A stretch of DNA of 64,000 nucleotides from Pisolithus tinctorius (lineage: Eukaryota > Basidiomycota > Agaricomycetes > Boletales > Pisolithaceae). The stretch is taken from assembly GCA_024663395.1 (NCBI GenBank), contig JANFAH010000030.1, forward strand, positions 372,001 to 436,000. The letters are read 5' to 3'. Below the pieces are notes generated by a model, which did not search any database, had not been told where the DNA came from, and was given only the letters and a program-made list of their open reading frames with translations. Made by a program: the position numbers and the translations under genes. This document shows, piece after piece, positions 5,567-51,498 of the stretch. The stretch's first letter is position 1. Each line of letters starts with the position of its first letter.

Positions 5567-8500
5567 ATGGTGTGTTTCAAGGCATTGTGTTGTATTTGGC
5601 AGCCGCCTTCCCCGAGCGACGATGCAGTCGTTCCGCAAGTTCCTGCTCCCGTTGGAGCTGCTCAGCCCCCAGCCAGTACAGACATCCTCGTCCCTGCACC
5701 GACTGAAGTGCCTGTCGAAGCCCCAGACTCTCCCTCAGTCAATATTGGGGGTGTTCGTGCAGCCGTGGCGGTCGAAAACACGCCGCCATGTTCTCCTGTG
5801 GGCCCTAGCCCTAGCAACGTGGACACTCCCGCTTCCGCCCCTACCGAAGGTGGTTGCACGTCTTCTTTATGGTTTCCTTTAGTTTATTTAGTGACTTGCC
5901 AGGTGCTCCGTCAAACAGTACAGATGCGCTTGTTCCTGCACTGACCGAGGCGGAACCCACGGTTCCGCGTTCTCCGGAGGAGAGTGCGGATACTCCTGTT
6001 CCTGTACACACTGAAGAAGTACCCACCGGTAAGCGTTGTACATGCGACGATGGAAACAAGTCTAAGAACATTAATGATCAGTGTCAGCCTCCGCACGCTC
6101 TAGGTTTCGCTTAGATCCTGCGAAAGCTAGAGAGCACATCGATCGCATCAAACGCTTTCGCATTCTCGTCATGGGAAGAGCCAATGCAGGTAAAACAACA
6201 ATCCTGAAGAGGGTTTGTAATACTACGGATGAACCAGAAATTTTTAATGGAGAAGGAGAGAAGGTGTGTACGTTTCATGGTATTTGTTTGAGTTTAACAA
6301 CGTGTCGGGCTATATTCAGGTGGATGCTACTGTGGTGCAGGGTTCCCTAAAGGTGAAGTAACTTCATGAATATCCTGCAGCTTATGTGGAATGTTTGAAT
6401 GTATCCAGCGTGGCTACCACAACATTGAGGATGAGCTGGTTTTCAAAAGTAATCAACGCTTTGTATTCCATGACTCACGTGGATTTGAAGCTGGAAGTGA
6501 AGAGGAGTTTGACATCATGAAGGAATTCGTGATGGATCGTGCCAAGACAACCAAGCTCGACAAGAGAATTCATGCCATATGGTATGGCCACTATGTTTGA
6601 CACCCTAACAAAGTGACATGGTTTCTGTGATGGATTTAGGTTTTGTATTCCGTTGAATGAGAGCCACAGGATGGTCACAGCTGCAGAAAAGAAGTTTTTT
6701 GATGAGTGTGATACAGGACATGGTGTGTATATTGACTGTGCCCTGTTTGATGTTTTCAAATTTCAATGTTTTTGGCACAGTTCCTGTGATTGTATTGCTA
6801 ACAAAAACAGATACATTGGCCTTGGATGCATTCATGGGGCTCATTGATGATGGTTTGGATGAAGATGATGCAGTGGAAAGGGCTGCAGAGGTAGAGAGAA
6901 GGAATGTGAATGAGTGTCTTGTAAAGGTGAAGGGTTGGTTGGATGAGTTGAGGTTTCCGCCCCATGACTATCTGCCACTCATGGGTGGGTATCCTAACCA
7001 TCACTGCAGAATGGCCCAGTTTCACAGAAAATGACAGCAGGAATGGACAAAGAGAATGCTGAGTGTACACCCCTACTAACATGCACAGCAAATGCTTTAA
7101 GTGAGGAAGGACTGCAGCAGCTCCTCATATCATCACAGCAGTCAAACCTAGGACTGTGTTTGGAATTTGCAATAACAAAGTAAGTGAGAAAGTAGAAGGA
7201 TAAAGATGTGCTGATAGGTGCAAGGACATTGAAGAAATGCATGAATACCTTTGTTGACAAGATAGGGCTAACAAGGCTTTCAAGGATCCTCTCATGCTGG
7301 TTTCCATATGTAAGAAAATAGTGAATGGTATGGATGTTATGCTGATTTGACAGCAGGCAGTGTGTGAAGTTGCAAAAAATCTGACTAGTGGATACTGATA
7401 TGACTGTGGCTTGGGATTCATAGTGTGTGAGTGGAGTCATAGCAGGTGGCAGCAGGATACTGACCATGTTCACCTGCACCCACTTGGACTTGGATTCATA
7501 GCAAGTAAGTGGAGTCATGGAAGGTGGTGGAAGCATTCTCACCATGTTCACTCCCACCCTTTTGGACTTGCATTCATAGAAAGTGAGTGGAGTCATGGCA
7601 GGTGTTGGAAGCATTCTGACCATGATCACCCCCACCCTTTTGGACATGGATTCATAGTTGGTGAGTGGAGTCTTGGCAGGTGGTGGAAGCATTCTGACCA
7701 TGTTCATTCCCACCCTTTTGGACTTGCATGCATAGTATGTGAGTGGAGTCATGGCAGGGGGTGGAAGCATTCTCACCATGTTCACTCCCACCCTTTTGGA
7801 CTTGGATGCATAGATTGTGAGTGGAGTCATGGCAGGTGGTGGAAGCATTCTCACCATGTTCACTCCCACCCTTTTGGACTTGCATTCATAGGGAGTGAGT
7901 GAAGTCATGGCAGGTGGTGGAAGGATTCTGACCATGTTCACTCCCACCCGTTTGGACTTGGATTCATAGGCAGTGAGTGGAGTCTTGGCAGGTGTTGGAA
8001 GCATTCTGACCTTGTCTACTCCTACCCCCTTGGACTTGCATTCATAGGGAGTGAGTGGAGTTGTGGCAGGTGGTGGAAGCATTATGACCATGTTCACACC
8101 CACCCATTTGGACTTGCATTCATAGGAAGTGAGTGGAGTCATGGCAGGTGGTGGAAGCATTCTGACCATGTTCACTCCCACCCTTTTGGACTTGCATTCA
8201 TAGTATGTGAGTGGAGTCATGGCAGGTGGTGGAAGCATTCTCACCATGTTCACCCCCACTGTTTTGCACTTGCATTCACAGGAAGTGAGTGGAGTCATGG
8301 CAGGTGGTGGAAGCATTCTGACCATGTTCACTCCCACCCTTTTGCACTTGGATTCATAGGGAGTGAGTGGAGTCATGGCAGGTGGTGGAAGGATTCTCAC
8401 CATGTTCACTCCCACCCTTTTGGACTTGCATTCACAGTTGGTGAGTGGAGTAATGGCAGGTGGTGGAAGGATTCTGATCATGTTCACTCCCACCCTTTTG

Positions 8501-11500
8501 GACTTGCATTCATAGAGTGTGAGTGGAGTCATGGCAGGTGGTAGAAGCATTCTGACCATGTTTACTCCTACCATTGTGGACTTGCATTCAAAGTTGGTGA
8601 GTGTAGTCTTGGCAGGTGGTGGAAGCATTCTCACCATGTTCACTGCCACCCTTTTGAACTTGCATTCATAGGGAGTGAGTGGAGTTGTGGCAGGTGGTGG
8701 AAGCATTCTAACCATGTTCACTCCCACCCTTTTGGACTTGCATTCATAGGAAGTGAGTGGAGTCATGGCAGGTGGTGGAAGCATTCTGACCATGTTCACT
8801 CCCACACTTTTGGACTTGCATTCATAGGATGTGAGTGGAGTCATGGCAGGTGGTGGAAGCATTCTGACCATATTCACTCCCACCCTTTTGGACTTGCATT
8901 CATAGTTGGTGAGTGGAGTCATGGCAGGTGGTGGAAGTATTCTCACCATGATCACTCCCACCCTTTTGGACTTGCATTCATAGGAAGTGAGTGGAGTCAT
9001 GGCAGGTGGTGGAAGCATTCTGACCATGTTCACTCCCATGCTTTTGCACTTGCATTCATAGGAAGTGAGTGGAGTCATGGCAGGTGGTGGAAGGATTCTC
9101 ACCATGTTCACTGCCACCCTTTTGGACTTGGATTCATAGGCAGTGAGTGGAGTCATGGCAGGTGGTGGAAGTATTCTGACCATGTTCACTCCCACCCTTT
9201 TGGGCTTGCATTCATAGCAAGTGAGTGGAGTCATGGCAGGTGGTGGAAGCATTCTGACCATGTTCATTGCCACCCATTTGGACTTGCACTCATAGTATGT
9301 GAGTGGAGTCATGGCAGGTGGTGGAAGGATTCTCACCATGTTCACTCCCATCCTTTTGGACTTGCATTCATAGATGGTGAGTGGAGTCATGGCAGGTGGT
9401 GGAAGCATTCTGACCATGTTCACTCCCACCCTTTTGCACTTGCATTCACAGTTGGTGAGTGGGGCCATGGCAGGTGGTGGAAGCATTCTGACCATGTTCA
9501 CTCCCACCCTTGTGGACTTGCATTCATAGAGTGTGAGTGGAGTCATGGCAGGAGATGGAAGCATTCTGACCATGTTCACTCCCACCCTTTTGGACTTGCA
9601 TTCATAGTTGGTGAGTGGAGTCATGGCAGGTGGTAGAAGCATTCTGACCATGTGCGCTCCAACCCTTTTGAACTTGCATTCACAGTTGGTGAGTGGAGTC
9701 ATGGCAGGTGGTGGAAGCATTCTGACCATGGTCACTCCCACCCTTTTGGACTTGCATTCATAGGAAGTGAGTGGAGTCATGGCAGGTGGTGGAAGCATTC
9801 TGACCATGTTCACTCCCACCCTTTTGGACTTGCATTCATAGTATGTGAGTGGAGTCATGCCAGGTGGTGGAAGGATTCTGACCATGTTCACTCCCACCTT
9901 TTTGCACTTGCATTCATAGTATGTGAGTGGAGTCATGGCAGGTGGTGGAAGCATTCTCACCATGTTCACTCCCACCCTTTTGGGCTTGCATTCATAGCAA
10001 GTGAGTGGAGTCATGGCAGGTGGTGGAAGGATTCTGACCATGTTCACTCCCACCCTTTTGGATTGCATTCATAGAAAGTGAGTGGAGTCATGGCAGGTGG
10101 TGGAAGCATTCTCACCATGTTCACTCCCACCCTTTTGCACTGGCATTCATAGGAAGTGAGTGAAGTCATGGCAGGTGGTGGAAGCATTCTCACCATGTTC
10201 ACTCCCACCCTTTGGACTTGCATTCATAGAAAGTGAGTGGAGTCATGGCAGGTGGTGGAAGCATTCTCACCATGTTCACTCCCACCCTTTTGGACTTGCA
10301 TTCATAGAGAGTGAGTGGAGTCATGGCAGGTGGTGGAAGCATTTTAACAATGTTCACTCCCACCCATTTGGACTTGCATTCATAGGAAGTGAGTGGAGGC
10401 ATGGCAGGTGGTAGAAGCATTCTGACCATGTTCACTCCCACCCTTTTGCACTTGGATTCATAGGGAGTGAGTGGAGTCATGGCTGGTGGTGGAAGCATTC
10501 TGACCATGTTCACTTCCACCATTTTGGACTTGCATTCATAGAGAGTGAGTGGGGTCATGGCAGGTGGTGGAAGCATTCTCACCATGTTCACTTCCACCCT
10601 TTTGGACTTGCATTCATAGGAAGTGAGTGGAGTCATGGCAGGTGATGGAAGCATTCTGACCATGTTCACTCCCACCCTTTTGGACTTGCATTCATAGGAA
10701 GTGAGTGGAGTCATGGCAGGTGGTGGAAGGATTCTCACCATGTTCACTCCCACCCTTATGGACTTGTATTCATAGCAAGTGAGTGGAGTCATTGCAAGTG
10801 GTGGAAGCATTCTGACCATGTTCACTGGCACCCATTTGGACTTGCATTCATAGGCAGTGGGTGGAGTCATGACTGGTGGTGGTAGCATTCTGACCATGTT
10901 CACTCCCACCCTTTTGGACTTGCATTCATAGGAAGTGAGTGGAGTCATGGCTGTTGGTGGAAGCATCCTGACCATGTTCACTGCCACCCTTTTGCACTTG
11001 GATTCATAGCATGTGAGTGGAGTCATGGCAGGTGGTGGAAGCATTCTGACCATGTTCACTGCCACCCTTTTGGACTTGCATTCATAGGAAGTGAGTGGAG
11101 TCATGGCAGGTGGTGGAAGCATCCTGACCATGTTCACTCCCACTCTTTTGCACTTGCATTCACAGTTGGTGAGTGGAGTCATGGCAGGTGGTGGAAGCAA
11201 TCTGACCATGTTCACTCCCACCCTTTTGGACTTGCATTCATAGGGAGTGAGTGAAGTCATGGCAGGTGTTGGAAGCATTCTCACCATATTCACTCCCACC
11301 CTTTTGGACTTGCATTCATAGAGAGTGAGCGGAGTCATGGCAGGTGGTGGAAGCATTCTCACCATGTTCACTCCCACCCTTTTGGACTTGCATTCATAGA
11401 GAGTGTGTAGAGTCATTGCAGGCAGTAGAAGCATTCTGACCATGTTCCCTCCCACCCTTTTGGACATGCATTCATAGTTGGTTAGTGGGGTCATGGCAGA

Positions 11501-14500
11501 TGGTGGAAGTATTCTGACCATGTTCACTCCTGTGCTTTTGCACTTGGATTCATAGGAAGTGAGTGGAGTCATGGCAGGTGGTGGAAGCATTCTGACCATG
11601 TTCACTGCCACCCTTTTGGACTTGCATTCATAGGAAGTGAGTGGAGTCATGGCAGGTGGTGGAAGGATTCTCACCATGTTCACTCCCACCCTTTTGCACT
11701 TGCATTCATAGATGGTGAGTGGAGTCATGGCAGGTGGTGGAAGGATTCTCACCATGTTCACTCCTACCCTTTTGGACTTGCATTCATAGCAAGTGAGTGG
11801 AGTCTTGGCAAGTGGTGGAAGCATTCTGACCATGTTCACTCCCACCCTTTTGGACTTGCATTCATAGAGTGTGAGTGGAGTCATGGCTGTTGGTGGAAGC
11901 ATTCTGACCATGATCACTCCCACCCTTTTGGCCTTGCATTCACAGTTGGTGAGTGGAGACATGGCAGGTGGTGGAAGCATTCTGACCATGTTCACTCCCA
12001 CCCTTATGGACTTGCATTCATAGGCAGTGAGTGGAGTCATGGCAGGTGGTGGAAGCAATCTGACCATGTTCACTCCCACCCTTTTGGACTTGCATTCATA
12101 GATAGTGAGTGGAGTCATTGCAGGTGGTGGTAGCATTCTGACCATATTCACTCCCACCCTTTTGGACTTGCATTCATAGGAAGTGAGTGGGGTCATGGCA
12201 GGTGGTGGAAGTATTCTCACCATGATCACTCCCACCCTTTTGGACTTGCATTTGTAGTTGGTGAGTGGAGTCATGGCAGGTGGTGGAAGAAATCTGACCA
12301 TGTTCACTCCCACATTTTTGAACTCACATTCATAGGAAGTGAGTGGAGTCATGGCAGGTGGTGGAAGCATTCTGACCATGTTCACTCCCACCGTTTTGGC
12401 CTTGCATTCATAGAGTGTGAGTTGAGTCATGTCAGGTGGTGGAAGCATTCTGACCATGTTCACTCCCACCCTTTTGGACTTGGATTCATAGGGAGTGAGT
12501 GGCATCATGGCAGGTGGTGGAAGCATTCTGACCATGTTCACTCCCACCCTTTTGCACTTGCATTCATAGTTGGTGAGTGGAGTCATGGCAGGTGATGGAA
12601 GCATACTTACCATGTTCTCTCCCACCCTTTTGGTCTTGGACTCATAGGGAGTCAGTGCAGTCATGGCAGGTGGTGGAAGCATTCTGACCATGTTCCCTCC
12701 CGCCCTTTTGGACTTGCATTCATAGAAAGTGAGTGGAGTCATTGCAGGTGGTGGAAGCATTCTGACCATGTTCATTCCCACCCTTTTGGACTTGCATTCA
12801 TAGTTGGTGAGTGGGGTCATGGCAGGTGGTGGAAGCATTCTGACCATGTTCACTCCCACCCTTTTGGACTTGCATTCATAGCAAGTGAGTGGAGTCATGG
12901 CAGGTGGTGGCAGCATTCTGACCATGTTCACTCCCACCCTTGTGCCCTTGGATTCATAGGAAGTAAGTGGAGTCATGGCAGGTGGTCAAAGCATTCTGAC
13001 CATGTTCACTTCCAACCTTTTGGACTTGCATTCATAGCAAGTGAGTGAAGTCATGGCAGGTGGTGGAAGCATTCTGACCATGTTCACTGCCACCCTTTTG
13101 GACTTGCATTCATAGGAAGTGAGTGGAGTCATGGCCAGTGGTGGAAGCATTCTGACCATGTTCCCTCCCACCCTTTTGGCCTTGCATTCATAGAATGTGA
13201 GTGCAATCATTGCAGGTGGTGGAAGCATTCTGACCATGATCACTCCCAACCTTTTGGCCTTGCATTCATAGTTAGTGAGTGGGGTCATGGCAGGTGATGG
13301 AAGCATTCTGACCATGTTCACTCCCACCCTTTTGAACTTGCATTCATAGAAAGTGAGTGGAGTCATGGCAGGCAGTTGAAGCATTCTGAATGTATTCACT
13401 CCCATTCTTTTGCACTTGCATTTATAGAAAGTGAGTGGAGTCATGGCAGGTAGTGGAAGCATTCTGACCATGTTCACTGTCATGCTTTTGGCCCTGCATT
13501 CACAGTTGGTGAGTGGAATCATAGCAGGTGGTGGAAGCATTCTCACCATGTTGACTTCCACTGTTTTGGCCTTGGATTCATAGCATGTGAGTGTGCTCAT
13601 GGCTGCTCATGACAGCAATCTCATCATGGTTACTGCCAATATGACATTGGGTTTTTAGTTTGTGAGCCCAGTTATAGCAGACTTTAGCTAGATGTCTGCT
13701 TACTATTCCCCTTTTAAAATAATGCATTTCTGGTCATAGAATGTGAGTCTCATCCAAGATTATTGAACAGGTTGTTGATGCTATATAGATGGTGAATTTC
13801 ATCATTGTATTTATGAAATATTCATATTTTACAATTTTTCAGGATGTAGGTGCACATTTTCATGGAGGTCGAATTTGACCCTTATCTCCCTATTTGCATC
13901 TATCAGCCTGTTAGTCATCATCATTCACAATTATTTCCCATGCTAATATACCTTGTCCAGAATGTGTGCATTTTTTTGGAATTCATATTATGATTTACTG
14001 ATAATGTTTGTAGTTGGTTTGTGGCCCCATTCCTTATTGACATTATTTGATATGGTCCCATGACATATTGCTCAGGTGGTCAGTTTTGCCTCCCTTATTC
14101 TGCCATGAATGGATGACTTGATTTGACAACATCATAGCCTACTATTAAGACTCATTCCTTCTCTAATGTCCAAATGCCTCCCTTGGCCAAATCACCACAG
14201 CCTTCAATGCAACTTGTTGCAGAACATGGCATTGGTAATTGATATCCTGTCATGATTTCACACCCATAACCCACAATTGCAGGTTCTCTTCTTGTGTTTG
14301 AATATTTATACTTCTGGTTGCAGTCCAACAAATGCAATAGTGATTGGCAGACAGGCCTTAAATTGGCTGTCACAACATATCAAACATCAGGTGTTCAAGC
14401 TAATGTTGCCAAACTTGTCACAGCAGCATTTCAGCAACATGGTGAAGATGTGGAGGCTTTATCTCCCATCCTTGTAGGTATTGCAAAGGAGAATCAGATG

Positions 14501-14527
14501 TGTATGATACTATTTTCTCAACACTAA
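5567..14527 (+). CDS. P-loop GTPase with an array of one-codon micro-exons (about 97 exons, 616 aa predicted)
   Basis: Conventional exons: 5567-5849, 5903-6028, 6082-6263, 6320-6352, 6409-6581, 6640-6722, 6781-6984, 7038-7179, 7225-7309. They end in phase 0 after 437 codons. Then come a short exon 7354-7359 (or 7357-7359), 84 exons of 3 nt (7424-14016), a further 3-nt exon at 14076-14078, 14201-14234, and 14283-14527 (stop TAA 14525-14527). Total 1,851 nt, divisible by three, with no internal stop. Residues 1-136 are Pro/Ala-rich. The G domain has Walker A GRANAGKT (168-175), G3 HDSRG (about 229-233) and G4 TKTD (301-304). The following part (CTPLLTC...SSQQSNLGLCLEFAITK...WFPY) matches the Agaricomycete GTPase family I know. 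The triplets add a Glu/Leu-rich coiled-coil-like stretch (about 439-524), followed by a helical C-terminus (LKLAVTTYQTSGVQANVAKL). It probably acts as a cytosolic GTP-binding switch; partners are unknown. The G-domain exons are secure. The micro-exon chain is inferred from sequence only. Confidence 0.75.
7310..7423 (+). other. Lead-in introns of the micro-exon array
   Basis: After the exon ending WFPY (7309) a GTAAGA donor follows. The sequence CAG|CAGGCA|GTGTGT at 7351-7365 offers a 6-nt exon (Gln-Ala), or a 3-nt exon GCA if CAGCAG is the acceptor. The next intron (7360-7423) ends GGATTCATAG like the array introns but is otherwise unrelated to them. This is the diverged upstream edge of the array. 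Confidence 0.45.
7427..13658 (+). repeat. Tandem array of 78-bp units: a 75-nt near-identical intron plus a 3-nt exon, about 80 copies
   Basis: The unit starts GTGAGTGGAGTCATGG, has an internal TTCTGACC or TTCTCACC (CTNAY, branch-point-like) about 37 nt before the end, a pyrimidine run, and ends TTGCATTCATAG. A variable triplet follows each unit. Triplet n starts at 7424+78(n-1) for n=1-34; at 10075 (35) and 10153 (36); at 10230+78(n-37) for n=37-80. Then it starts at 13659, 13740, 13843 and 14014 in diverged introns. AG precedes and GT follows every triplet. The base before AG is T, C or once A, never G. Donor variants are all tolerated forms (GTAAGT, GTGGGT, GTGTGT, GTTAGT, GTCAGT). The two 1-bp deletions (about 10,064 and 10,211) lie inside introns. 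CpG is almost absent. A simple minisatellite would not concentrate its variation in one 3-nt window. Confidence 0.9.
13587..14282 (+). other. Diverged downstream introns and micro-exons of the GTPase gene
   Basis: Beyond unit 80 the introns lose similarity to the consensus, yet 3-nt windows between AG and GT continue. They are TTT 13659-13661 (TTTTTAG / GTGAGC), AAT 13740-13742 (GTCATAG / GTGAGT), GAT 13843-13845 (TTTTCAG / GTAGGT), TTG 14014-14016 (TTTGTAG / GTTTGT) and GTG 14076-14078 (GCTCAG / GTCAGT). The 34-nt exon 14201-14234 follows CACCACAG and is in phase 0 with them. The intron 14235-14282 joins it to the last exon in frame. Confidence 0.6.
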
Positions 14528-30858: not shown

Positions 30859-32762
30859 GTGTGCATTGTAACTTGGGTGGATGATCCACATCCCTGTAGC
30901 TACATCTGGGCCATCCCCCATGTGGTCGAACCAATGTATGACAGTGCATGGATACAAAGTGCCTTGATACTTGAATGAAAAAAAGCACAGAACACAGGCA
31001 ATGTCCAGTCCATGCATACCCTCTGCCTCTGGATTGGTTACAACAAAGACACAGTCAAAATGGGGTCCTTTGTTCCTCCACATGGGGCAGGAACGAATGT
31101 GCTCATGGCACATGCCATAGAGGCCACATAGATCACTCGGTGCAAAAAAAGTGGAACACACAGAGTTGTAGACATGCATGCTACCATCACAGGGTGGGCA
31201 CTCATTGAGGGCGATGTCATCCAGATCATCAGTGGGAAAGAGTTGTGAGTAGAGGAAGCAGTGCAGAATGTTGGGAAGCTGTGGCAGACAAAGCTAGCTG
31301 CTAGGGCACCTACAGTCCTTGTGCGCTTATGTTCTAAGATATTTAAACCAGTTAGCATCTGAGTATGTACAGAGTGGAAGGTTGAGACATATGATGGGTA
31401 CGAGCCAATGATACATGGGCCTCGACCAACCTGGGAGCATCAACAGCATCGCCCAGTTCCTCCTCATAACTCCCTGCTTGTTCTTCGATTTTGTTGGCCA
31501 TGTCATGGCTTTCCCCAACTTGGTCACATGGATCATCAGCATTGCTGGGATGTTGACCTGAACACCTGTCAGAAAGGGGCAAATCATAGGATTAATACTT
31601 GTACCTAGAGCCCCAAGTGCATGTGATAGCAATGGTTCATTTAACATACCACGTTCTTTGAAGTCAGCATGCATGGCAATGAGTTTGTAGAGCCTCTGGT
31701 TGATCAAAAGCATCTGTCTGAGAGCTTGAAAGTAGTTAGTGTGCTGATAAGGCTGTTTGACAGCCTTAATATGTTTGGACTCTGTAATTGAAGAGCAGAG
31801 GCTGTTAGGTGTGCCAAACTGACAGATAAGGTGGTAGTAATTCTTCATAGCATGTTGCCAGGGCAGTGAGAAGGTATCAACTACCCCAGCATTCTGGAAG
31901 ACTTCGCGATAAAGGTGGAAGCACCTGAGTGCATCGTCAATTTCAACAAGCATCTGTTGAGTGATAACATTCCAACAAATGAGGTAACAAAATTCCAGAA
32001 AGGCTCGAAAAGTGAAGATGATGTATTGTGGAACATAACCTTCAATTGCTGTGATGTAAACCTGTGAAGGACTGGTCAATAATCACACAAAGGAAATACA
32101 GATGAGCACACCTTCATAAGGCCCTTGGAATTGTCACTGGTCCACTGTTTGAAGTGTCAACCTTGAGGGAAATGCCACAGCCCAGTATATGGGGCAACAG
32201 CTGTGACCCTGAAAGACCATGAAGTAGATATGAATATTAATTGAAGTCATGTACTGCTGGTCAATCTCATCCAAGACTTTTTCTGCCTGTGTCTTTCCAT
32301 GAATGTGGATTAGGTAGCGCTTGACCCAATCCACCAGGTGGTCCTTGAACCCACCTTTGATAAGCTGGTGGAGGATATCTGGTGAATGCATGCCGTAGAT
32401 GTCTGCATGCAGAAAATCATTTGTAAATGGCTGTCTTTGATTAGAAAACGAAAGAAAACATGGGGTTACACTTACCACTATGTCACCAACAATCCCATAC
32501 ATGTCCCACAGTTTATGAAAGTCAAATTCTTTGATCACAGTGTCAGCATGCTCACAATGATGATGGAGCGCATCATCATCCAGACTCTCCTGGTGTGCAA
32601 GGCACTTTGGGCACCAATTCCATATGATACAAGACAACAGAACTTGTTCCTCATAGTCAGCTATATAAGCCACTAGTGAATATATGATGTGCTGATAGTA
32701 TTTGTCACCACATAATATTATTTCTGGGACACTCATAGTGGGTCAAAGCGAACAAAGAATGC

Positions 32763-42684: not shown

Positions 42685-43338
42685 TGTAGGAAAAGTCCAA
42701 GTAGCTGTATAACACGAGCTAGATGGCTTAGATAACAACAATAAAAAATGAAGGGAACGAATTGTTCGTCCCAAGGGATCCTGGACTGTCGGGACTAGAA
42801 GGAGAGACCCAGCGCTTTGTAGCGGTAGTGTTTCGTGACGTGCGCGGCGTGGTCCGCAGAGTAGTACTAGCGATGCGAGCGGTGCGAGCGGTATACGTAG
42901 TTCGTGCGCGGCGGAATGCGAGATGTGCGGTGTAGACAAAGTGGAAAAGAAACTCGTGGTGACCTTCCGAGTGCCAAAAGGTATCATTCTGTACCTAAGT
43001 ATAAGGCTTTATAGTCCGGACAAACCCGGAACCTAAGTAAGACAGGGTACAGTAAAGGAAAGCCGCGCGACAGCGCGTACACAGAAGACAGGCCAAACTG
43101 AGGCCGAGGGTATACTACAAGCACTAAAGGAATAGAGACCGTGATAAGAGAAGGAGTCCAAGGAAAAACAACAACCGGAGCACAGCAGCCGTGGGTATAG
43201 CATTGCGTGAGAGGGAGCGAGGGCGCGGGAAGGTAGCGCGTGAACAATGGTGAACGCGAGAGGGGAGCGGACGTAACAGTAGTCACGGAACGGTTAATGA
43301 TAGGGGCTTACGCGTCCAGGGAATGCGGATTCCTCACA
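42685..43338 (-). repeat. 3' LTR of the Gypsy element
   Basis: 654 bp; sense-strand ends TGTGAGGAATCC ... CTTTTCCTACA. Relatives: 52,100-52,753 (5' LTR), 30,180-30,858 and 60,775-61,436 (solo copies). Confidence 0.93.
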
Positions 43339-45500
43339 CCTGCGGGGGACTTAGATGCTGACCGTCCCCAGTCAGCCACGTGGCGCGGAGGACATAAATA
43401 GCTTGCCGCGTGGTGATGGCAACGGTGTGGTGCCGAGGGTTCGAGAACACCGGATGATTCCGCGTGGAAGCGAAGCAAGCGTAGAGCCGAGGGACGCGAG
43501 AAGGCCGTTGAATACCACGTATAGGCGTCCGGACTGATGACATAAGCGCCTCATGGCCGCTAAGTATATATTTGTTAGTGCGCGGCTCAAACCTTCGCAT
43601 CGATTTGATTCTTTCCCCCTCATCAATCGCCTTCTCTATCGCTCTAGTCATGTCTGCCAACCGTGCCCCTCGCCTGTCCCAGCTCGTTCGTGTGGCTACC
43701 CCCGACCCGATCGAAGCGGAGAAGACCGCTTTAAAGGCGAGGTTCGTCGTTGCCTCCGCGGCTCTGGTCGCTGAGGCGAGGTGCCTCCCGGATGACAAGG
43801 AGGAGCTGTGGGAGGAGAAGGTTACGTGGATGCGCCGATGGGAGGAGAGAACAGTGAGTGGGCTAGCCGTCTGAGACCCGCGGCATTGACCGTCCTCTAG
43901 GGGGAGGTGTACCCCATCGTCGAGCGCGGGCAAGAACTGGGCATCGACACCAAGATAGACGCAGCGGATGGACCCGCCATCGCAGAGGCTGATGAGGCCT
44001 ACAAGAGGTGGGTGGCCGAGGAGATTGCGCACAGAAAGGCCGACGAAGACGTGCGGATGGGCGAGGAGACTGCGCAGGCCGTCGGCGAGCAAGATGTGAG
44101 TGTCGCGGCGCCGGCAGCGACAGAGAAAATGTCGCATGTCGAGGTTGTAGCCCGGCCGGTTCGAAAGGTGAGTGCGCGGCTCGTATGATGCGGTAGCAGC
44201 TGACACTGGAGTCCCAAGCGATCGCGGCAGACGGTCGTTGAGAGCGAGGTCGAGGACGAGCCGAAGATCGTCGTCCCGTCCGGTTCTATTCTCCACAAGG
44301 TGCCCTGCGCGCGCTGCCTGGTCAGGAATGCCGCGTGCACGGGTCCTGTCGGCCGCACGTGCAACGGCTGCGCGCGGATGAAGCAAAGGTGCGAGAAGTC
44401 GACGAAGGCCGCGGGAAAGAGAGCGCAGGCCGGCATGTCGGTCGGTAAGTAGTGGTCCCATCTCTGGAGGTGCGAAGTTAACGGTTCGCAGCCCAGGCTT
44501 CGAGGTCCGCGAAGGCCAGCCCTTCCAAGAGGGCCGTTGACGACGACGAGGTGGAAGTGGTCGAGAGCCACACACGCGCGAAGGGGAAGGCACCAGTGCG
44601 TAGTCGGCTCGACGCCAAGGTCGCGGCCGACCTCTCGCAGTCGCTGAGGCTGCTGCGTGCCGAGGCCGCGGAGTCACAGGCCGCGTACCTTCGCCTGCAG
44701 GTGCGCGTCGATCAGCTCGCCGAAGCGCTGGAGAAGATTGGGGTGGAATAGGAATGTTTGTAGTTAGTTCAGATTCGTTGTACTGTCCCAACCGCATGTC
44801 AGCGCATACCGCGCTAAATATACCGCTCTTCTTGCTTCTGTGCGAAGTTGCGAACGACTCGGAGTGCTTGGTGATGTCCTGCGGGATAGTGCGGCCGCAG
44901 CAGGATATGATGCGCGGGGTACCGCCCGACTTGTCTTCTTCGTGCGACTTTTGACTTCTCTCAACGGTAAGTCCTCGTGAAGCGATCTTGATGGTAGGAT
45001 GTGACGGACTCTTGAAGAGGAAGCGAAGGGACTGTTTATTGGGTAGCTGGGACGGTCTTTGTGTATCAAATGTAAGGAGACGGAAGGAGATTTGAAAGAA
45101 AAGTAGATCAAGGGGCGCACGCTGACTGCGCGATCGAAGAGGAAATGTGCGGGGTGGTTGAGAGGACCCGCGGTATAGGGCGGCCGAGGACGGCATCAGT
45201 GAGACTAGTAAGAGAGATAGGAGAGACGTTGTTTTGGCTATATACTTATTCGGTGTTTTGTTATTTTTCTGGACAGTTTTGGACTTTTTGTAAGCGGTTT
45301 GTATGTTTTTTGAAGGACTAGCTATCAGTAGAATCGCCGGACGAAACCCGGGGTGGAATAGAGGTCTCCGGACGAAACCCGGGGTAAAACAGATAAAGGG
45401 AAACGAACTATGTCTGATATCGGGTGTATCGGGTGAATCAAGTGGTATGCTGGTCACCCCTGCGGGGGACTTTGAACGCTGACTGTCCCCAGTCAGCATG
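43339..45500 (+). repeat. Segment between pol and 3' LTR bounded by direct repeats
   Basis: CCTGCGGGGGACTT..A.GCTGAC.GTCCCCAGTCAGC occurs at 43,339-43,377 and again at about 45,459-45,498. It contains a GCTGAC/GTCAGC inverted pair that could form a hairpin. The first copy abuts the 3' LTR. The enclosed 2.1 kb holds the antisense Zn-cluster gene. At 45,333-45,392 CCGGACGAAACCCGGGGT is duplicated in tandem. Confidence 0.75.
43650..44751 (+). CDS. Zn(II)2Cys6-type protein with C-terminal coiled coil, antisense inside the Gypsy element
   Basis: Exons 43650-43853, 43901-44167, 44219-44444 and 44492-44751 are joined by three short introns (GTGAGT/CTAG, GTGAGT/CAAG, GTAAGT/GCAG), giving 318 aa with frame kept throughout. 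Cysteines in exon 3 follow CX2CX6CX7CX2CX6C (CARCLVRNAAC, then CNGCARMKQRC), the pattern of the fungal binuclear zinc cluster, which binds DNA in Gal4-type regulators. The last exon has a basic stretch and a leucine-repeat helix (AAYLRLQVRVDQLAEALEKI), as in dimerising factors. It is transcribed against gag-pol. It may regulate the element or be captured host sequence. The ATG at 43,650 opens the first exon and no other gene overlaps on this strand. Confidence 0.7.
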
Positions 45501-45637
45501 GGAGAAGGAACGAGTGTAGTAGGAGAAGCCCCGGGGAGGCGGGCGAGGCCGCGGAAAGAGGTATGGGTATCGTGGGAGAAGAGGGTACGGGGGAATAGCG
45601 CGATAGACAAACTGTGGATACTGGAAAGGACGGATAG
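44752..45637 (-). other. Non-coding 3' part of the Gypsy element between pol stop and Zn-cluster gene
   Basis: A 758-codon frame on the minus strand (43,334-45,610) runs through here and through the antisense of the Zn-cluster exons. It has no domain and is best explained as an antisense shadow in GC-rich DNA. No clear polypurine tract was found next to the 3' LTR. Confidence 0.5.
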
Positions 45638-48600
45638 TCAGCTGCCCGCGGAGAAAGCCTCCACATCATCATCAGAGGGGTCATCCTCAGCTTCCTCAAG
45701 AAGGCGGTCTAGCTCTTCATCATCTAACCCAGTAATGCGAGTTACAGTTGCGCGGGTCTGAGACCGCGGGTGGTAGGGAAGTAAGCGGAATGCAGCGAAG
45801 CGGAGTTTGGAGATGGAGCCATCCAACTCAGCCAGCAGGTACGAACCCCCAGTGGTCCAACGAAGGACGACCATGGGACCAGTGTACCGTGGCTTCGTCT
45901 TCCAGTTCAGTTCCTTCTCTACGCGGGAGTTGCGGACAAGCACGAGGGCGCCGGGAGCGAAGTTATGGTCTTTAATGCGATGCTGAAAGGCGGTTTCGAA
46001 CTGCTGGATAGACTGGAAGCGTGCGCGGAGGACGTTGCCGCGGACCTGGTCTAGGTCATCCTGACGCTTCTGTAGCTGGCGCGCACGCCAAGCAATCAGT
46101 TCTGTGGTAGTCAGCGGCGTAGCATCATCGCGGGATAGGGGCAAGAGGAAGGTAGCCTCAGCGAGATCAAATGGGAACAGCGGCTCGACACCGTGCACCA
46201 TGAAGTAAGGGGATAAACCCGTAGACTTCAGAATGGTGACCCGCTCGGCCCAGAAGATGGAGTGCGCAACGGTGTGCCAGCGGCGATCATCGTTCTCGCA
46301 GCTCTTCATGATAGCCTCGCGAACATCATAGTGGCGGCGCTCTACAATGCCGTTAGCCTGAGAGTTGTAAGGAGAGATATGGATGTGACAGATATGATAT
46401 TGCGTGGCTAGGGCATCTAAAGCTTGGACGAACGCGGGACCGTTGTCGGTGACAATCTCGGTGAGCGGACCCCAGCGGCATAGGATATCCTCGAAGATGA
46501 AGGACGCGAGCGCGGTACTATTTTCCGCGCGCAACATGCGCCATTCGGGGTATGAGGTGAGCGCGCAACGAGCCTGTACTATGTAGCAGTAGCCGCCGGC
46601 TTTGGGCATCAGCATCGTGTCAATGTGAGCTTTATGAAACAGGCCCCCTATCATGGGTACAGTGGGGGGGATATGAAGCTTCTGCGTCTGGCGGATCTGG
46701 CATTCGTGACAAGTGCGAACATACCACTTCACATCCTCGACAAGAAGAGGCCACCAGAAGCGAAGGAGAAGGCGCGTGTGGACCGTGAAGACCCCCTTGT
46801 GTCCGAGGCCGTCATGCGCTTCTTTGATGAGACGATACCGCTTGGATTCGTCGACGACTAGCTGGTGCCGTCCGTGCGGTTCTCTACGCCATAAGTTACC
46901 ATCTAGGAGGAAGAAGCGGCTGGCCGAATTAAAGAAGGATGAGTACTGCGCATCAGTAAGGTCAGGAGGTCGCTCGCGGGTCGCGAGGAATGCGCGGATC
47001 ATTTCTATCTTTGCTTCGCGTGCCCGAGCTTTCGCGGACCGCGGAATGGCAGGGTCGTCTGGGGTATCGGAAGGGTTATTAGCATCAGCAGTCGCAGAGA
47101 ATGCGAGATAGAAGGATGTAGGCAGCGGGAGGCTCGCCCGATGGTAAGCGGGTGGCGGTAGGGAATGCTGGTCTTGACTGGAAAGTGACATAGGAGGCGG
47201 GCGGTCATTGACAACCTGTGTAGAGAAAGAGTAAAAACGGTCCAGCCAATCCTCATGGTCGTCATCCTCGGGCGGGTCGAGCTCTGACCGCGGACGGCGG
47301 GATAAGCCGTCAGGGCCGGCATGCTTGTCCGCGGGAACGTGGACGAGTTTAAACGAGAAGAGGAGGACGCCAGCGATCCAGCGATTGATCGTCGCGTTAG
47401 GCTGGAGATCTGGGTTATTTATCATGCCCTTAATATACTTCGCATCTACCTCCACAGTGAAGTTAGTGAGACCGAAGATGTATACGCGTACCGCGCGCAA
47501 CACGCGGAAGAGACCATACAACTCAAGCTTAGCCTGGGAGTAGTGGCTTTCCACTTCATTGAGGGTGATGGATCCGAAGCGACTTGGGTACCGTCTGCCA
47601 TCTTCGCCAAGCTGGTAGAGGATGTAGCCAACTGCAATGACCGATGTGTCGACTGCCAGAACTACTTCGCGACCGCACTCGTAGTCGATTCTTCGGAGTG
47701 CGGGGGACTTTACAATTTCATCCTTGAGTCGTTGCATGGCAGCGCGTTGCGGCTCTTCCCATGTGAATGGTACGTCTTTCCGCATGAGCGCGACTAGCGG
47801 CCGCGCGATCTTGGCGAAGTCTTTGATGAAGATGCGTAGCACACCGCAGACACCGAGGAAACCGCGAACCTGTGTCAGGTTGCGGCACTCGGGCCAGTTG
47901 CGGATCTTCTGCACTTTGCTTTCTTCAGGAATGCGACCTTCAAAGGTGCACTTGTGGCCAACGATCACAGCGGACAGAGCAGCTAGCACGAACTTCTTTG
48001 CTGAGACAGTGGCTCCGACGTTCTGCAAACGCTGAAGGATACGGTTAACGACTATACAGTGATTCCAGATAAATTTCCGAATCCCAGGATTCTCCAGGAT
48101 AGTCTCATAGGAGCCGTCTGCGCGCTGATAGCGGGTGGTCTCGGATTTCACGGGGACGTCATCTATGAAGGGTAGGGTATGATGCGGGATCTCATCCTGG
48201 AGAACAAATGCAGTATCTCCCTGGTATACCTGTACCGCATTCGCATGACCTTGCGGCAGAGTAGTAAGCCGATGTGGTCCGAGGGGGGTACCGAAGGTGG
48301 TGAGGTCGCGGGAATCGACGTGGAGTGCGCGCTGGTCATACCTGGAGTAGAGGTCCATCATCGCATACACCGCATATCCAGCAAAGGATTCTGCGAGATG
48401 TTCTACGAAGGGCGGAACGGACGCATCGCGGATGGTCACTGCATTCAGGGGCTGTAAGTCATGCACAAGGCGAAGAGACTTTCCGTCTTTCTTTACTACG
48501 CAGAACCAGCGGGAGCGGTAAGCCGCTGTAGAAGGTTCATACATGCCGGACTTGATGCGATCTTTAATCATGTCTATGACTTGGGCATGGATCGCGTTCG

Positions 48601-49249
48601 GGATAGGGATGTTGCGTTGGACCCAAGGCGTGTGCAGAATCGTAGGGATCTTTACTGGCGGAAAATAGCGTTCGTCTAGGTGTCCACGCTCTGTAATGTC
48701 CCAAGCGAATGCGAGCTCATGGACCGAAACGAGCCAAGTTACGAGTTTAAGTTCTTCTGGCCAAAGCCAATCTGCAGGGTCGAGGTCAAGTTCCGCGGCC
48801 CGTTCGGCAGTGAAGCGGACGCCCGGGGTGAAGTCTGGTGGATGGGTTGGAAGTGGTTGGAGACCAGCGAGCGGGTCGTCAGGCAGGCTGCGCACGATGC
48901 GGTATTCTTCCGCCATCGGGGCAGGTACCGTCCGAACCTTCTTGGCAACCGGCTTGTAAACGAGGGTGCGAACCGCGGGATCTAGTTGATAAACGCTGCC
49001 GAATGCAGCTATAGCAGAGGGGTTTAGTATTGTCTGAGTGGAAGAGAGGAAAGTGAAAGCAGGCGAGGGTATTCCGGCGGGTATGTTCCGCGGTACGGGT
49101 GCCGCGGGCGAAGAGAAGTTCGTCGAAGTAAAGGCTAACGATGAGACTGTAGGACTGAGGAACGGATAACAGCGGCTAAATAGGAAACAGGACGTTTTAG
49201 TAGGCTCTCCCCGACCGTTTGGTGGATCATCAATATTCAAAAACCCCAT
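45638..49249 (-). CDS. pol: Gypsy pol: reverse transcriptase, RNase H, integrase
   Basis: 1,203 codons uninterrupted. After a linker of about 200 residues, RT begins near FCVVKKDGKSLRLVHDLQPL, continues through AVYAMMDLYSRYDQRALH and LPQGHANAVQVYQGD, and its active-site box reads PFIDDVPVK (F-I-D-D in place of Y-x-D-D, as I recall for one basidiomycete Gypsy lineage). RNase H-like: EVVLAVDTSVIAVGYILYQ, with a conserved D. Integrase: HHCC zinc finger (HDGLGHKGVFTVH ... CHECQIRQ) and the DDE triad in HIDTMLMPK, VTDNGPAF and GIVERRH. The C-terminus (FAPGALVLVRNSR, KTKPRYTGPMVVLR) matches the usual GPY-type tail. It overlaps the gag ORF by 13 nt in the -1 frame. Confidence 0.95.
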   Translation of the reverse strand: MGFLNIDDPPNGRGEPTKTSCFLFSRCYPFLSPTVSSLAFTSTNFSSPAAPVPRNIPAGIPSPAFTFLSSTQTILNPSAIAAFGSVYQLDPAVRTLVYKPVAKKVRTVPAPMAEEYRIVRSLPDDPLAGLQPLPTHPPDFTPGVRFTAERAAELDLDPADWLWPEELKLVTWLVSVHELAFAWDITERGHLDERYFPPVKIPTILHTPWVQRNIPIPNAIHAQVIDMIKDRIKSGMYEPSTAAYRSRWFCVVKKDGKSLRLVHDLQPLNAVTIRDASVPPFVEHLAESFAGYAVYAMMDLYSRYDQRALHVDSRDLTTFGTPLGPHRLTTLPQGHANAVQVYQGDTAFVLQDEIPHHTLPFIDDVPVKSETTRYQRADGSYETILENPGIRKFIWNHCIVVNRILQRLQNVGATVSAKKFVLAALSAVIVGHKCTFEGRIPEESKVQKIRNWPECRNLTQVRGFLGVCGVLRIFIKDFAKIARPLVALMRKDVPFTWEEPQRAAMQRLKDEIVKSPALRRIDYECGREVVLAVDTSVIAVGYILYQLGEDGRRYPSRFGSITLNEVESHYSQAKLELYGLFRVLRAVRVYIFGLTNFTVEVDAKYIKGMINNPDLQPNATINRWIAGVLLFSFKLVHVPADKHAGPDGLSRRPRSELDPPEDDDHEDWLDRFYSFSTQVVNDRPPPMSLSSQDQHSLPPPAYHRASLPLPTSFYLAFSATADANNPSDTPDDPAIPRSAKARAREAKIEMIRAFLATRERPPDLTDAQYSSFFNSASRFFLLDGNLWRREPHGRHQLVVDESKRYRLIKEAHDGLGHKGVFTVHTRLLLRFWWPLLVEDVKWYVRTCHECQIRQTQKLHIPPTVPMIGGLFHKAHIDTMLMPKAGGYCYIVQARCALTSYPEWRMLRAENSTALASFIFEDILCRWGPLTEIVTDNGPAFVQALDALATQYHICHIHISPYNSQANGIVERRHYDVREAIMKSCENDDRRWHTVAHSIFWAERVTILKSTGLSPYFMVHGVEPLFPFDLAEATFLLPLSRDDATPLTTTELIAWRARQLQKRQDDLDQVRGNVLRARFQSIQQFETAFQHRIKDHNFAPGALVLVRNSRVEKELNWKTKPRYTGPMVVLRWTTGGSYLLAELDGSISKLRFAAFRLLPYHPRSQTRATVTRITGLDDEELDRLLEEAEDDPSDDDVEAFSAGS
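49237..49249 (-). promoter_or_regulatory. Candidate -1 ribosomal frameshift site at the gag/pol overlap
   Basis: The sense strand reads GAATGGGGTTTTTGA. In the gag frame the last codons are TGG GGT TTT TGA, so the heptamer G GGT TTT fits X XXY YYZ directly before the stop, and pol lies in the -1 frame. The pol ATG overlaps here too, so stop-restart translation is an alternative. Confidence 0.5.
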
Positions 49250-51498
49250 TCGACTATACTTTGGTGGCTATGGCAGTGCTTGCCGCACTTGCAGCGCGGA
49301 CAGCCCTCGTGCCACGGGCGCGTGGGCAAAGTGTACTCGCGGCTGTTGTTCGGGTCTCGGAGAGTGATCCGCTGTCCGCCGTCGGGATAGTCGTTTGTTA
49401 CCGCACTCATAAGGCAAATGAACGGACGTCCGAGGAGCATGTCGAAGTTGGCATGCTCAATTACTTGAACCTGGAGCATGACTGGCCCAGCGCCGAAGTC
49501 GAGTTTCAGGTTCTCCAGTACGCCTACAGTAGTGTCTTTAGACATGTTAGCAGATGTCATAGTCATGAGATGATCGCAGCGCAATGGAAGCCCGATCTTT
49601 TCCCAAACGCGCCTGGGCATGGCGACGATTTCCGAACTGGAATCTAGTACGCAGTTGATGGTGACGTCGGTCCCAGGGACCTTGGCTTCGAGGCAGCGGA
49701 GCGGCAGAGTGTGGTGAGCTACGATGGAGCCGTCGTCACCGCGGATAACGCGGTCTCCGTATTCGCGCGCGGTTCTTTGAGGATCGTGGCCGGTCAGTTC
49801 ATTCACTTGTACTCCTTCTTCATCGTCGCTACGAACTACCTCAATCTCGTTTGTGGTGACGCGTTTCGCCATGGTGATGTCTCTGAACTGTTTGCGAAAC
49901 TCCGGGGCAACTGCAAATAATTCTTTGACTGGCATGGCAACGCTGGTTTCAAGTATGCGCTCCACGATACGCTTGGGCGCGGCTTCGTCTTTGAGAGGGA
50001 ACGAGTAACGGTACTGGTTTTGATTGCGAACTGCTGGGTACAGTGTCTGCGACGGAACAATTGCCGCGGGAACGGGGTCCTTGCACGCGGGCGTTGGAGC
50101 CGGATTAGTCGGAGGAACATATGGTTTCGTAGCGGTAGATGTTGGTGCAGGTGTGGAGGGCTCAGATGCCTGGCGAGCGGCATGCGAACTTTGGACGCCA
50201 GGGGAAATGATTTCCTCTTCAACAGTGGCTGTGCGCGGGTCGACTCGTGGAGGGTTGGCAGGACGTGCCGCGGGTCGAGCTGTGATTTCAACTCCGTCGA
50301 AGCGGGCTTTCTTTCCGCGGGAAATGACTGCTCCCTTGTTACCTTTATCCGCTTGGTAGGTAGCCCAAGCTTGAGCGACATATGCTTGGAAGTCAGGGTC
50401 AGCTAAGTCTGCGACGGGTTCATCGGCGTCTTGGACGGTGTTTAAGAAGGCAGAAGGCTGGATTTCCAGCTGCACGTCAATTTCAGGATGAGCAACGCAG
50501 AAGAGGTTAGCGGTGCCTTGCGCGGCCGCGTTGCGCGGAGCGGCAGGAGTCGTAGCACGCGTGCTGGCCTGGTCTCTGTCAGCCATGACGCGGTCAACAG
50601 CCTCTCTCAGTGAGTTACATTCAGGGAAACGTGGAATTCGGCTCCCGTCCGCCAGATAGAGACGGTTGTCTGTACCTCTCGTGATCTTACCGGCACGGAT
50701 ATAAACTTCAACGAGCACGCACATCCTTGTCCAGTGGTTGGGGTCTGCACAGAAACCACAGCCGGGTCTGCGTTGCTGCGGCGGAGGCTGCGTCTGGAAG
50801 TTGTATTCCTGTTTAACGACAGTACCAGCAGGTGGCACTTGTGGCATGTAAGCCGACGAGGGAGGTGCAGCTGGCGAGGCCGCGGTACCCATCGTCAGTA
50901 CCGCGCTACGAAGAGCGGATCCTGTCAGAAGGAACTTGGCGGCTTTGACGACTTCTGCGAGTGGGTATGGATCGTCAGGGTGGAGGTCGGTGCGGACTAT
51001 AGAGAGTCGATGACGAATACGATCTGCGATGGCCCTCGGGAAGCCATTCAGGAACATGGAATCCCGTTCCGTCTCTGCAAGCTTTTTAGTTTTAATGAGG
51101 AGGGCAGAAATCTTAGCGAATTTCCGCTGGTATTCTCCGAGGTCATCCTGGTTCCGCATAGGCTTGGACTGATATTCTTCGACGAGGTACTGCAAGTCTG
51201 CACGGCAGTAGCGGTCGTCACCCTCGCAGCCAGGGTACAAACCCTTAACAGCTACTACGAAGGCATCCCAGTCGTCGGCCGCGGGAGCGGCTTCCGGAAG
51301 CGTTTGCCAGACCTCGGCTTCTTCGAGGTCAGCGTAGCGGATTGCGGCTTTGATCTTGCCACGGTCATCAAGAGCAGCGAGAGTACCGAGGAAGTCGATG
51401 TCTTCGAGGTAGCGCGGAAGCTGCGCGGGAGAATCTCCGCTAAATTTAGGTGAGTTTTGTGTACCGCGGAGCGGCATCTGAAACTGAGGATTAGCCAT
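49237..51498 (-). CDS. gag: Gypsy gag with zinc knuckle and aspartic protease
   Basis: 753 codons from the first Met. Capsid-like N-terminal part: LPRYLEDIDFLGTLAALDD, LGEYQRKFAKISALL, FLNGFPRAIADRIRHRL. Knuckle: CGFCADPNHWTRMC (CX2CX4HX4C). Protease near the C-terminus: INCVLDSSSEIVAMPRRVW, with DSS where most retroviral-type proteases have DSG or DTG, and FDMLLGRPFICLM (the ILGRP-like motif). The frame stays open upstream of the Met for a further 200 codons up to the LTR (52,099), with a Pro/Ser/Thr-rich composition and no Met. The true N-terminus may therefore lie in a spliced or LTR-derived leader. Gag assembles the particle; the protease matures it. Confidence 0.9.
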   Translation of the reverse strand: MANPQFQMPLRGTQNSPKFSGDSPAQLPRYLEDIDFLGTLAALDDRGKIKAAIRYADLEEAEVWQTLPEAAPAADDWDAFVVAVKGLYPGCEGDDRYCRADLQYLVEEYQSKPMRNQDDLGEYQRKFAKISALLIKTKKLAETERDSMFLNGFPRAIADRIRHRLSIVRTDLHPDDPYPLAEVVKAAKFLLTGSALRSAVLTMGTAASPAAPPSSAYMPQVPPAGTVVKQEYNFQTQPPPQQRRPGCGFCADPNHWTRMCVLVEVYIRAGKITRGTDNRLYLADGSRIPRFPECNSLREAVDRVMADRDQASTRATTPAAPRNAAAQGTANLFCVAHPEIDVQLEIQPSAFLNTVQDADEPVADLADPDFQAYVAQAWATYQADKGNKGAVISRGKKARFDGVEITARPAARPANPPRVDPRTATVEEEIISPGVQSSHAARQASEPSTPAPTSTATKPYVPPTNPAPTPACKDPVPAAIVPSQTLYPAVRNQNQYRYSFPLKDEAAPKRIVERILETSVAMPVKELFAVAPEFRKQFRDITMAKRVTTNEIEVVRSDDEEGVQVNELTGHDPQRTAREYGDRVIRGDDGSIVAHHTLPLRCLEAKVPGTDVTINCVLDSSSEIVAMPRRVWEKIGLPLRCDHLMTMTSANMSKDTTVGVLENLKLDFGAGPVMLQVQVIEHANFDMLLGRPFICLMSAVTNDYPDGGQRITLRDPNNSREYTLPTRPWHEGCPRCKCGKHCHSHQSIVEWGF

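Follow-up and report, generated by a model that had tools for sequence, protein, structure and literature searches.

The window analysed here is a stretch of 64,000 nucleotides (nt) from the 92.5-Mb assembly (221 contigs) of the genome of Pisolithus tinctorius, an ectomycorrhizal basidiomycete. It contains a GTPase gene (C30:377567-386527) for which we predict 100 exons at 5567-14527 of the + strand: nine ordinary 5' exons, 89 exons of one codon each, and two 3' exons. The joined coding sequence (1,917 nt) would encode 638 amino acids and ends with a single terminal stop codon. The parts of this model are:

5567..7309, + strand: nine ordinary GTPase coding exons (5567-5849, 5903-6028, 6082-6263, 6320-6352, 6409-6581, 6640-6722, 6781-6984, 7041-7179, 7225-7309), identified from tblastn with the proteins P0032 and P0102, the joined open frame, and weak MMR_HSR1 / Arf matches in relatives
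7357..14078, + strand: array of 89 predicted one-codon exons, all AG-NNN-GT (first 7357-7359 GCA, last 14076-14078 GTG)
7427..13583, + strand: near-identical array introns, 75 nt each save two of 74 nt, with the consensus GTGAGTGGAGTCATGGCAGG...GCATTCATAG
13659..14078, + strand: tail of one-codon exons amid diverged introns
14138-14234 and 14283-14527, + strand: two 3' coding exons, the second of which closes with a stop codon; homologous to the annotated fragment P0121

The nine upstream exons comprise 436 codons, include the G domain (G1 motif GRANAGKTT), and end in phase 0 at 7309 with the peptide ..SCWFPY. A first-pass annotation of the window, made from the sequence alone, had proposed this architecture with about 85 one-codon exons. 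The long array is real, but it has 89 of them, and 87 rather than 84 lie within 7,424-14,016. All 89 are preceded by AG and followed by GT, as had been claimed. The introns had been described as near-identical and of 75 nt; 77 of the 90 introns around triplets have this length. Two others are of 74 nt, and these account for the two 1-bp deletions that had correctly been placed in introns; the remaining 11 span 46-78 nt. Diverged introns past the uniform part of the array do retain the AG-NNN-GT layout, in the tail at 13659..14078. The last six triplets there (ATG GAT CCT AAT TTG GTG) align with a conserved tail in the paralogues (often M-D-H-N-L-V). We entered one exon of our chain (ATG 13789) manually, as its donor (GTGAAT) does not pass the chain program's rule. 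We moved the start of the first 3' exon from 14201 to 14138, where it begins with PTIKTHSF; the same rule gives an in-phase exon in all 22 loci that we modelled. The joined frame has no internal stop, as had been stated, but is 1,917 nt long rather than 1,851 nt.

At the DNA level, the units of the window array form a 78-bp minisatellite, with one 75-nt intron plus one codon in each. The tandem unit is a 75-nt stretch that starts with GTGAGTGGAGTCATGG and ends with ATTCATAG, followed by the triplet. Across 74 window units, heterozygosity is 0.70, 0.66, and 0.54 at the three triplet positions; at most other positions it is below 0.2, and the highest value is 0.41.

Similar arrays are found elsewhere in this genome. 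A 281-bp piece of the array, used as a query, gave 483 matches, and the pattern AGNNNGTGAGTGGAGTCATGG is present 677 times (0 times for the reversed control). The 5' and 3' modules of the window gene recur jointly at many loci, with arrays between them. We modelled 22 arrays of 14 to 89 units each (887 triplets in total), all in one GTPase family. These 22, together with a distant copy (L040) that is reported apart, are a screened subset rather than every array of the genome. Both members of two near-identical pairs (L011/L012 and L022/L023) are among the 22, so the set represents about 20 distinct loci. Three loci could not be modelled: L016 gave no chain, in L025 we found no 5' exon, and the 3' exon of L034 lies beyond the stretch examined. 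L036-L039, which are partner or further copies, are outside the 887 triplets. One unit each is absent from the models of L012 (a base of the triplet is gone) and L023 (a changed donor fails the rule). The GTPase family itself is very large: a search at E up to 1e-10 finds 857 proteins in the database, and the best 120 of these come from six named Pisolithus species and from unnamed contigs.

Near-identical pairs lie on different contigs (L011/L012, L022/L023, L035/L036, L030/L037, and L038/L039), which suggests that the assembly includes both haplotypes in part. We also note that the public annotation of P0121-P0124, P0001, P0003, P0016, and P0102 is apparently cut at the array: public N-terminal models end shortly past WFPY, and the C-terminal exons are annotated as separate small proteins.

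The distance from acceptor to donor is fixed in these arrays. In 68.6 kb from the 22 loci, [TC]AG-N{L}-GTRRGY occurs 762 times with L=3 and at most 12 times with any other L from 0 to 30 (twice with L=2). When donors and acceptors were tested independently in 11 loci, the best acceptor lay exactly 3 nt upstream for 459 of 485 strong donors; of the rest, 6 had it at another distance and for 20 no acceptor passed the threshold. None of the 887 triplets is a stop codon. From base composition, about 75 stops would be expected (on 886 triplets) if the three positions are taken as independent within each array. The introns of the modelled arrays are 45-157 nt long, and 273 of 909 are not multiples of three. 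In old copies (L027, L028, and L030), intron lengths vary across all three frame classes while the gap is constantly three, and introns of equal length differ pairwise by 28-33% in L028 and L030.

The flanks of the arrays point the same way. Both flanks are in phase 0, as had been noted for the window, and this holds in the modelled paralogues as well, where the flanking peptides are conserved. The final codons (often ATG GAT CAT AAT TTG GTG) are common to paralogues despite diverged introns. The branch-like motif CTNAY, also noticed earlier, is found 12-60 nt from the 3' end in 814 of 909 introns, versus 288 after shuffling. Across all 22 modelled arrays, just 1 of 886 triplets has C at its third position, which may be due to donor preference or to loss of CpG. 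The constant 3-nt gap, the diverged introns, the absence of stops, and the phase-0 flanks, along with whole-unit indels and insertions in relatives (see below), support the reading of the first-pass annotation. We conclude that one-codon exons in a GTPase gene are the model that fits the data best, with a probability of roughly 0.87.

Some proteins of relatives appear to derive from transcripts. Six of the best 120 of the 857 GTPase relatives are supplied by the source 'lgn'. Although the gene has many introns, the contigs of P0023, P0072, P0088, and P0090 are barely longer than the coding part, and we take them to be assembled transcripts because the introns are missing. At the array junction, four of the six transcript-like proteins are longer by roughly 36-51 residues. 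(Past WFPY, there are 51 residues in P0023, about 48 in P0025 before its end, about 43 in P0088, and about 36 in P0090.) In P0088 and P0090, whose counts were read from the alignment, the extra residues run on into the C-terminal exons. In P0023 (473 amino acids in 1,585 nt), the 51 extra residues are followed by VGGVMAGGAVC, which is identical at 9 of 11 positions to the translated start of an array intron of L029; 300 random 11-mers matched at 5 positions or fewer. By this similarity, the end of P0023 is probably a retained array intron, with the upstream codons joined first, as in-order splicing would give. The tails of P0025 (4/7) and P0072 (10/26) were also considered as translated introns; these matches are weak and have no control of their own, so we do not use them. 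Among annotated proteins, P0004 from P. microcarpus has a 56-residue insertion at the array junction. P0002, an older model of apparently the same gene, has none.

Several observations weigh against one-codon exons. That the 'lgn' contigs are RNA is inferred only from their missing introns, and two of the six transcript-like proteins, P0054 (6) and P0072 (about 14), have few residues past WFPY. The 12 array peptides that we predicted from this genome, including the window's, had no match at E up to 10 in a search of 5.8 billion proteins, in which scoring covered only the 7,999 candidates with the most words in common. A query with the C-terminal part of the window protein found five annotated P. 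tinctorius proteins and no assembled transcript. Several public models, including P0002, P0005, P0006, and P0008, go directly from FPY to the 3' exon. Two others, P0012 and P0013, do use runs of 3-nt exons, but out of frame. The path of P0012 (AAT GGA CTT CTT CTT GGA TTT TTT TTT GGA GGA GGT GTT) needs two 2-nt exons, and P0013, which can be traced for 33 residues (to the end of the retrieved sequence), omits a GTA unit that would be a stop in its frame. Both resemble ab initio gene predictions, and because they are off frame we rejected them as evidence from RNA. Finally, one unit of L012 reads AA, in a poly-A run, where its near-identical partner L011 reads AAA. This 2-nt exon would shift the frame if it were included, so it is skipped, or a homopolymer sequencing error, or a lesion. 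A homopolymer error is possible.

The distant copy L040 also bears on this question. It belongs to the lineage of P0106 (46% identical to the L028 query) and has 59 units with a different intron of 79 nt. The L040 intron has its beginning and the CTGAC part in common with the window intron. The alignment score of the two is 50, as compared to a mean of 30 and a best of 50.5 for 500 shuffles; since it only reaches the top of the shuffled range, a common origin is no more than suggested. In this array, which is otherwise regular, 3 of the 59 triplets are TGA (at 1747, 2156, and 3795), and this too argues against coding triplets. L040 is decaying, or its TGA triplets are skipped. Decay at CpG is a possible source of the TGA triplets. 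The L040 array also has two CGA units.

If the triplets are not exons, the array might be a single 6.8-kb intron: a minisatellite that is excised whole, with an mRNA that joins 7309 to 14138 and triplets that are non-coding. The frame survives the skipping of all 89 (550 codons would be left, stop included), several public gene models take this path, and searches of protein databases did not find transcripts of these arrays. We consider this very unlikely, as it leaves four things unexplained: that 0 of 887 triplets are stops, that the gap stays fixed at 3 nt amid diverged introns, that the tail codons are conserved, and that transcript-like proteins of relatives have insertions. We give almost no credence to another reading, in which one strand, antisense or sense, encodes a protein of 26-residue repeats and the triplet is a hypervariable position of the repeat. 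The first-pass annotation had mentioned an antisense open reading frame. Long frames of this kind exist in young arrays (the window has antisense frames of 1,024 and 925 amino acids), whereas the old arrays L027, L028, L030, and L035 have longest open stretches, over all frames, of only 99-172 codons. In older arrays, the units frequently have lengths that do not divide by three, and the homology to the gene is on the + strand on either side of the array. We rejected the repeat protein for the older copies, where the frames close.

The architecture could also be real in the family while the window copy, like many others, is a duplicate in decay that is silent or a pseudogene. The family is large and multicopy, no transcript was found for the window gene or for 11 other local arrays, and the TGA triplets of L040 and the 2-nt unit of L012 would be expected of decay. 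However, the window's 100 exons form an open frame with GT and AG at each site of the array, and 22 arrays are without a stop. We think that decay of the window copy is unlikely.

The gene product is probably related to P-loop GTPases. Pfam searches with four relatives (P0088, P0002, P0023, and P0090) gave weak matches to MMR_HSR1, Arf, and other GTPase models. The MMR_HSR1 scores of P0088 (22.8) and P0090 (22.1) are just above the cut-off of 21.9, and those of P0002 (20.2) and P0023 (19.7) are below it. The G1 motif of these GTPases (GxxxxGKT) is present as GRANAGKTT in the window gene and its relatives. With E values up to 0.1 allowed, Pfam gave no NACHT, NB-ARC, or ANK match for the four relatives. 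In the AlphaFold model of P0088, confidence is good across much of the G domain and the surrounding helices, and poor over most of the insertion (residues 401-463). Fold matches were mainly to the G domains of GTPases (IRG, dynamin-like, septin, and others). The plain reading of this model is that the array-encoded segment may be flexible or fast-changing.

We propose that the spliceosome joins the 89 triplets in order, which would probably give a variable stretch of 89 residues between two conserved parts of the protein. Since two splicing complexes would hardly fit on one 3-nt exon, the introns would most likely be removed one after another from 5' to 3'. As each exon is one phase-0 codon, the gain, loss, or skipping of a unit would alter the protein by one residue and leave the frame intact; a three-unit difference between L035 and L036 (described below) is an instance of this at the DNA level. 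By analogy with the repeats of fungal non-self receptors, the variable stretch would probably act in recognition or binding, as the fast-changing part of a multicopy nucleoside triphosphatase (NTPase). Expanded NTPases in an ectomycorrhizal fungus are a theme shared with Tuber (see below), which makes a role in recognition plausible.

Comparing copies shows how the arrays change. L035 and L036, which are probably two haplotypes, differ at 2 of 3,492 bases, by a 19-base gap, and by three whole units with the codons GGG GAA AGA (ENG-LLL vs ENG-ERG-LLL). Across five near-identical pairs, the triplets are equal at all 162 aligned AG-NNN-GT sites, of which a few are possibly outside arrays. Thus, no fast mutation of codons is seen at present, and rapid codon mutation now is unsupported. 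At a greater distance, L011 and L014 have 5' flanks that are 96.8% similar and codon strings that are unrelated.

The introns are far more uniform than the codons between them. The intron consensus differs at only 0-4 of 75 positions across 14 arrays, and between the window and L011 it differs at 1 of 75 positions while the 5' flanks are merely about 82% alike. In L013, the pairwise difference is 1.1% for introns but 60% per site for triplets. Seven arrays together contain 60 introns that match one another at all 75 positions, yet 13 different codons precede them. (Without L012, which is a twin of L011, there are 50 identical introns and still 13 codons.) The link between codon and intron type is weak: in 6 of 14 arrays, one or both of two tests gave a permutation value below 0.05. 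Linkage between common intron variants is almost absent within the 75 bases, save for one adjacent pair (r2 of 0.67). Equal neighbouring codons are in excess in L035 (11, with 3.0 expected) and L021 (11, with 5.7 expected) and not in the other 19 of the 21 arrays tested. A model with target-site duplication was rejected because of those 19.

Plain duplication of units plus point mutation does not readily yield identical introns with unlinked codons. An origin in which codon and intron were duplicated in tandem, with later point mutation under selection for altered codons, would fit the whole-unit indels of L035/L036, the runs of equal neighbours in L035 and L021, and the weak association of codons with intron types (6 of 14 arrays). 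We doubt it, given the contrast between introns and triplets in L013, the 13 codons before identical introns (60, or 50 without L012), the 19 arrays of 21 tested in which equal neighbours are not overrepresented, and the 162 unchanged triplet sites in near-identical pairs. The candidates for decoupling codons from introns are an exchange of units with very strong selection for codon diversity, or a replacement of introns that spares the codons. A tentative and rather speculative extension is that the gene is a machine for diversity codon by codon. The GTPase would be a receptor whose sensing stretch is built one amino acid per 78-bp unit, and copies of a master intron would serve both as splice scaffold and as homology for exchange. 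Introns would be rewritten while the codons are spared (for example by reverse splicing and reverse transcription), the codon string would be renewed wholesale, and identical splice sites might pair freely to give in-frame isoforms.

The first-pass annotation knew of no precedent for such runs, but there is one. Codon-sized microexons have been reported in the NACHT-ANK (nank) genes of Tuber melanosporum (Iotti et al. 2012, Fungal Biol 116:261, as cited by PMC4986451, PMC10197012, and PMC3689799). As described there, those genes are also an expanded NTPase family of an ectomycorrhizal fungus with tens of 3-bp exons (here 89 are predicted in one gene, and 887 in 22 arrays). Unlike our case, Tuber is an ascomycete, the proteins are NACHT-ankyrin, and alternative splicing was reported; here we have a basidiomycete GTPase, with no NACHT or ANK matches in four relatives. 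So codon-sized exons are already known, and what is added here is the protein family, the phylum, these arrays, and the decoupling of codons from introns.

Other systems share some of these features. The repeats of fungal NOD-like receptors (Podospora nwd and others), as presented in PMC4986451, are also NTPase-linked, with near-identical units, few highly variable positions, and shuffling between paralogues. There, the conserved part of the repeat is protein, whereas in our arrays that part is intron and the variable codon alone would be kept. Schistosoma micro-exon genes likewise have many tiny, mostly in-phase exons per gene, but the account in PMC10526429 gives 10-20 short exons (3-81 or 6-81 bp, mostly 15) and introns of 0.1-5 kb, as compared to 89 exons of 3 nt and introns of 46-78 nt here. 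Introners and introner-like elements of fungi, in the descriptions of PMC9860276 and PMC4457414, are near-identical introns at many loci. In contrast, the array introns are packed one codon apart, the copies that we examined are in one gene family, and the fungal group named in PMC9860276 is Pezizomycotina. The single-nucleotide exon of Fusarium CYP621A, according to PMC12940212, indicates that fungal spliceosomes manage exons this small; that is a single exon and not an array. Among the papers listed in our literature searches, there was no report of such arrays in Pisolithus or in GTPases, and the words GTPase and intron did not occur in the text of PMC10066745 (on Pisolithus genomes) that was covered by a term search. 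The repeat pattern of the array was not found in IMG/VR or in prokaryote contigs.

If the window gene is spliced as predicted, then it packs 100 exons into 9 kb, 89 of which consist of one codon, and belongs to a family in which we could model about twenty arrays. This would be a second fungal case, in another phylum and another protein family, of codon-sized exons varying an NTPase, and it suggests a general means of in-frame diversification. Such splicing would also challenge models of exon and intron recognition, and many RNA-seq aligners and annotation pipelines would miss such exons. The arrays offer 478 natural 75-nt introns of known context for studies of splicing. The decoupling of codons from introns calls for a mechanism that homogenises introns and spares exons, which is a matter for the study of intron evolution.

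Elsewhere in the window, the - strand at 43334-51498 is a Gypsy-like retrotransposon: it has three long open reading frames, two of which match DUF4100, aspartyl protease, reverse transcriptase, RNase H, and integrase. There is a match to a Plavaka transposase at 32134-32736 on the - strand (E = 1.9e-38); like the DUF4100 matches, it is in keeping with a basidiomycete. A 93-bp tandem repeat with 1.9 copies lies at 54436-54614.

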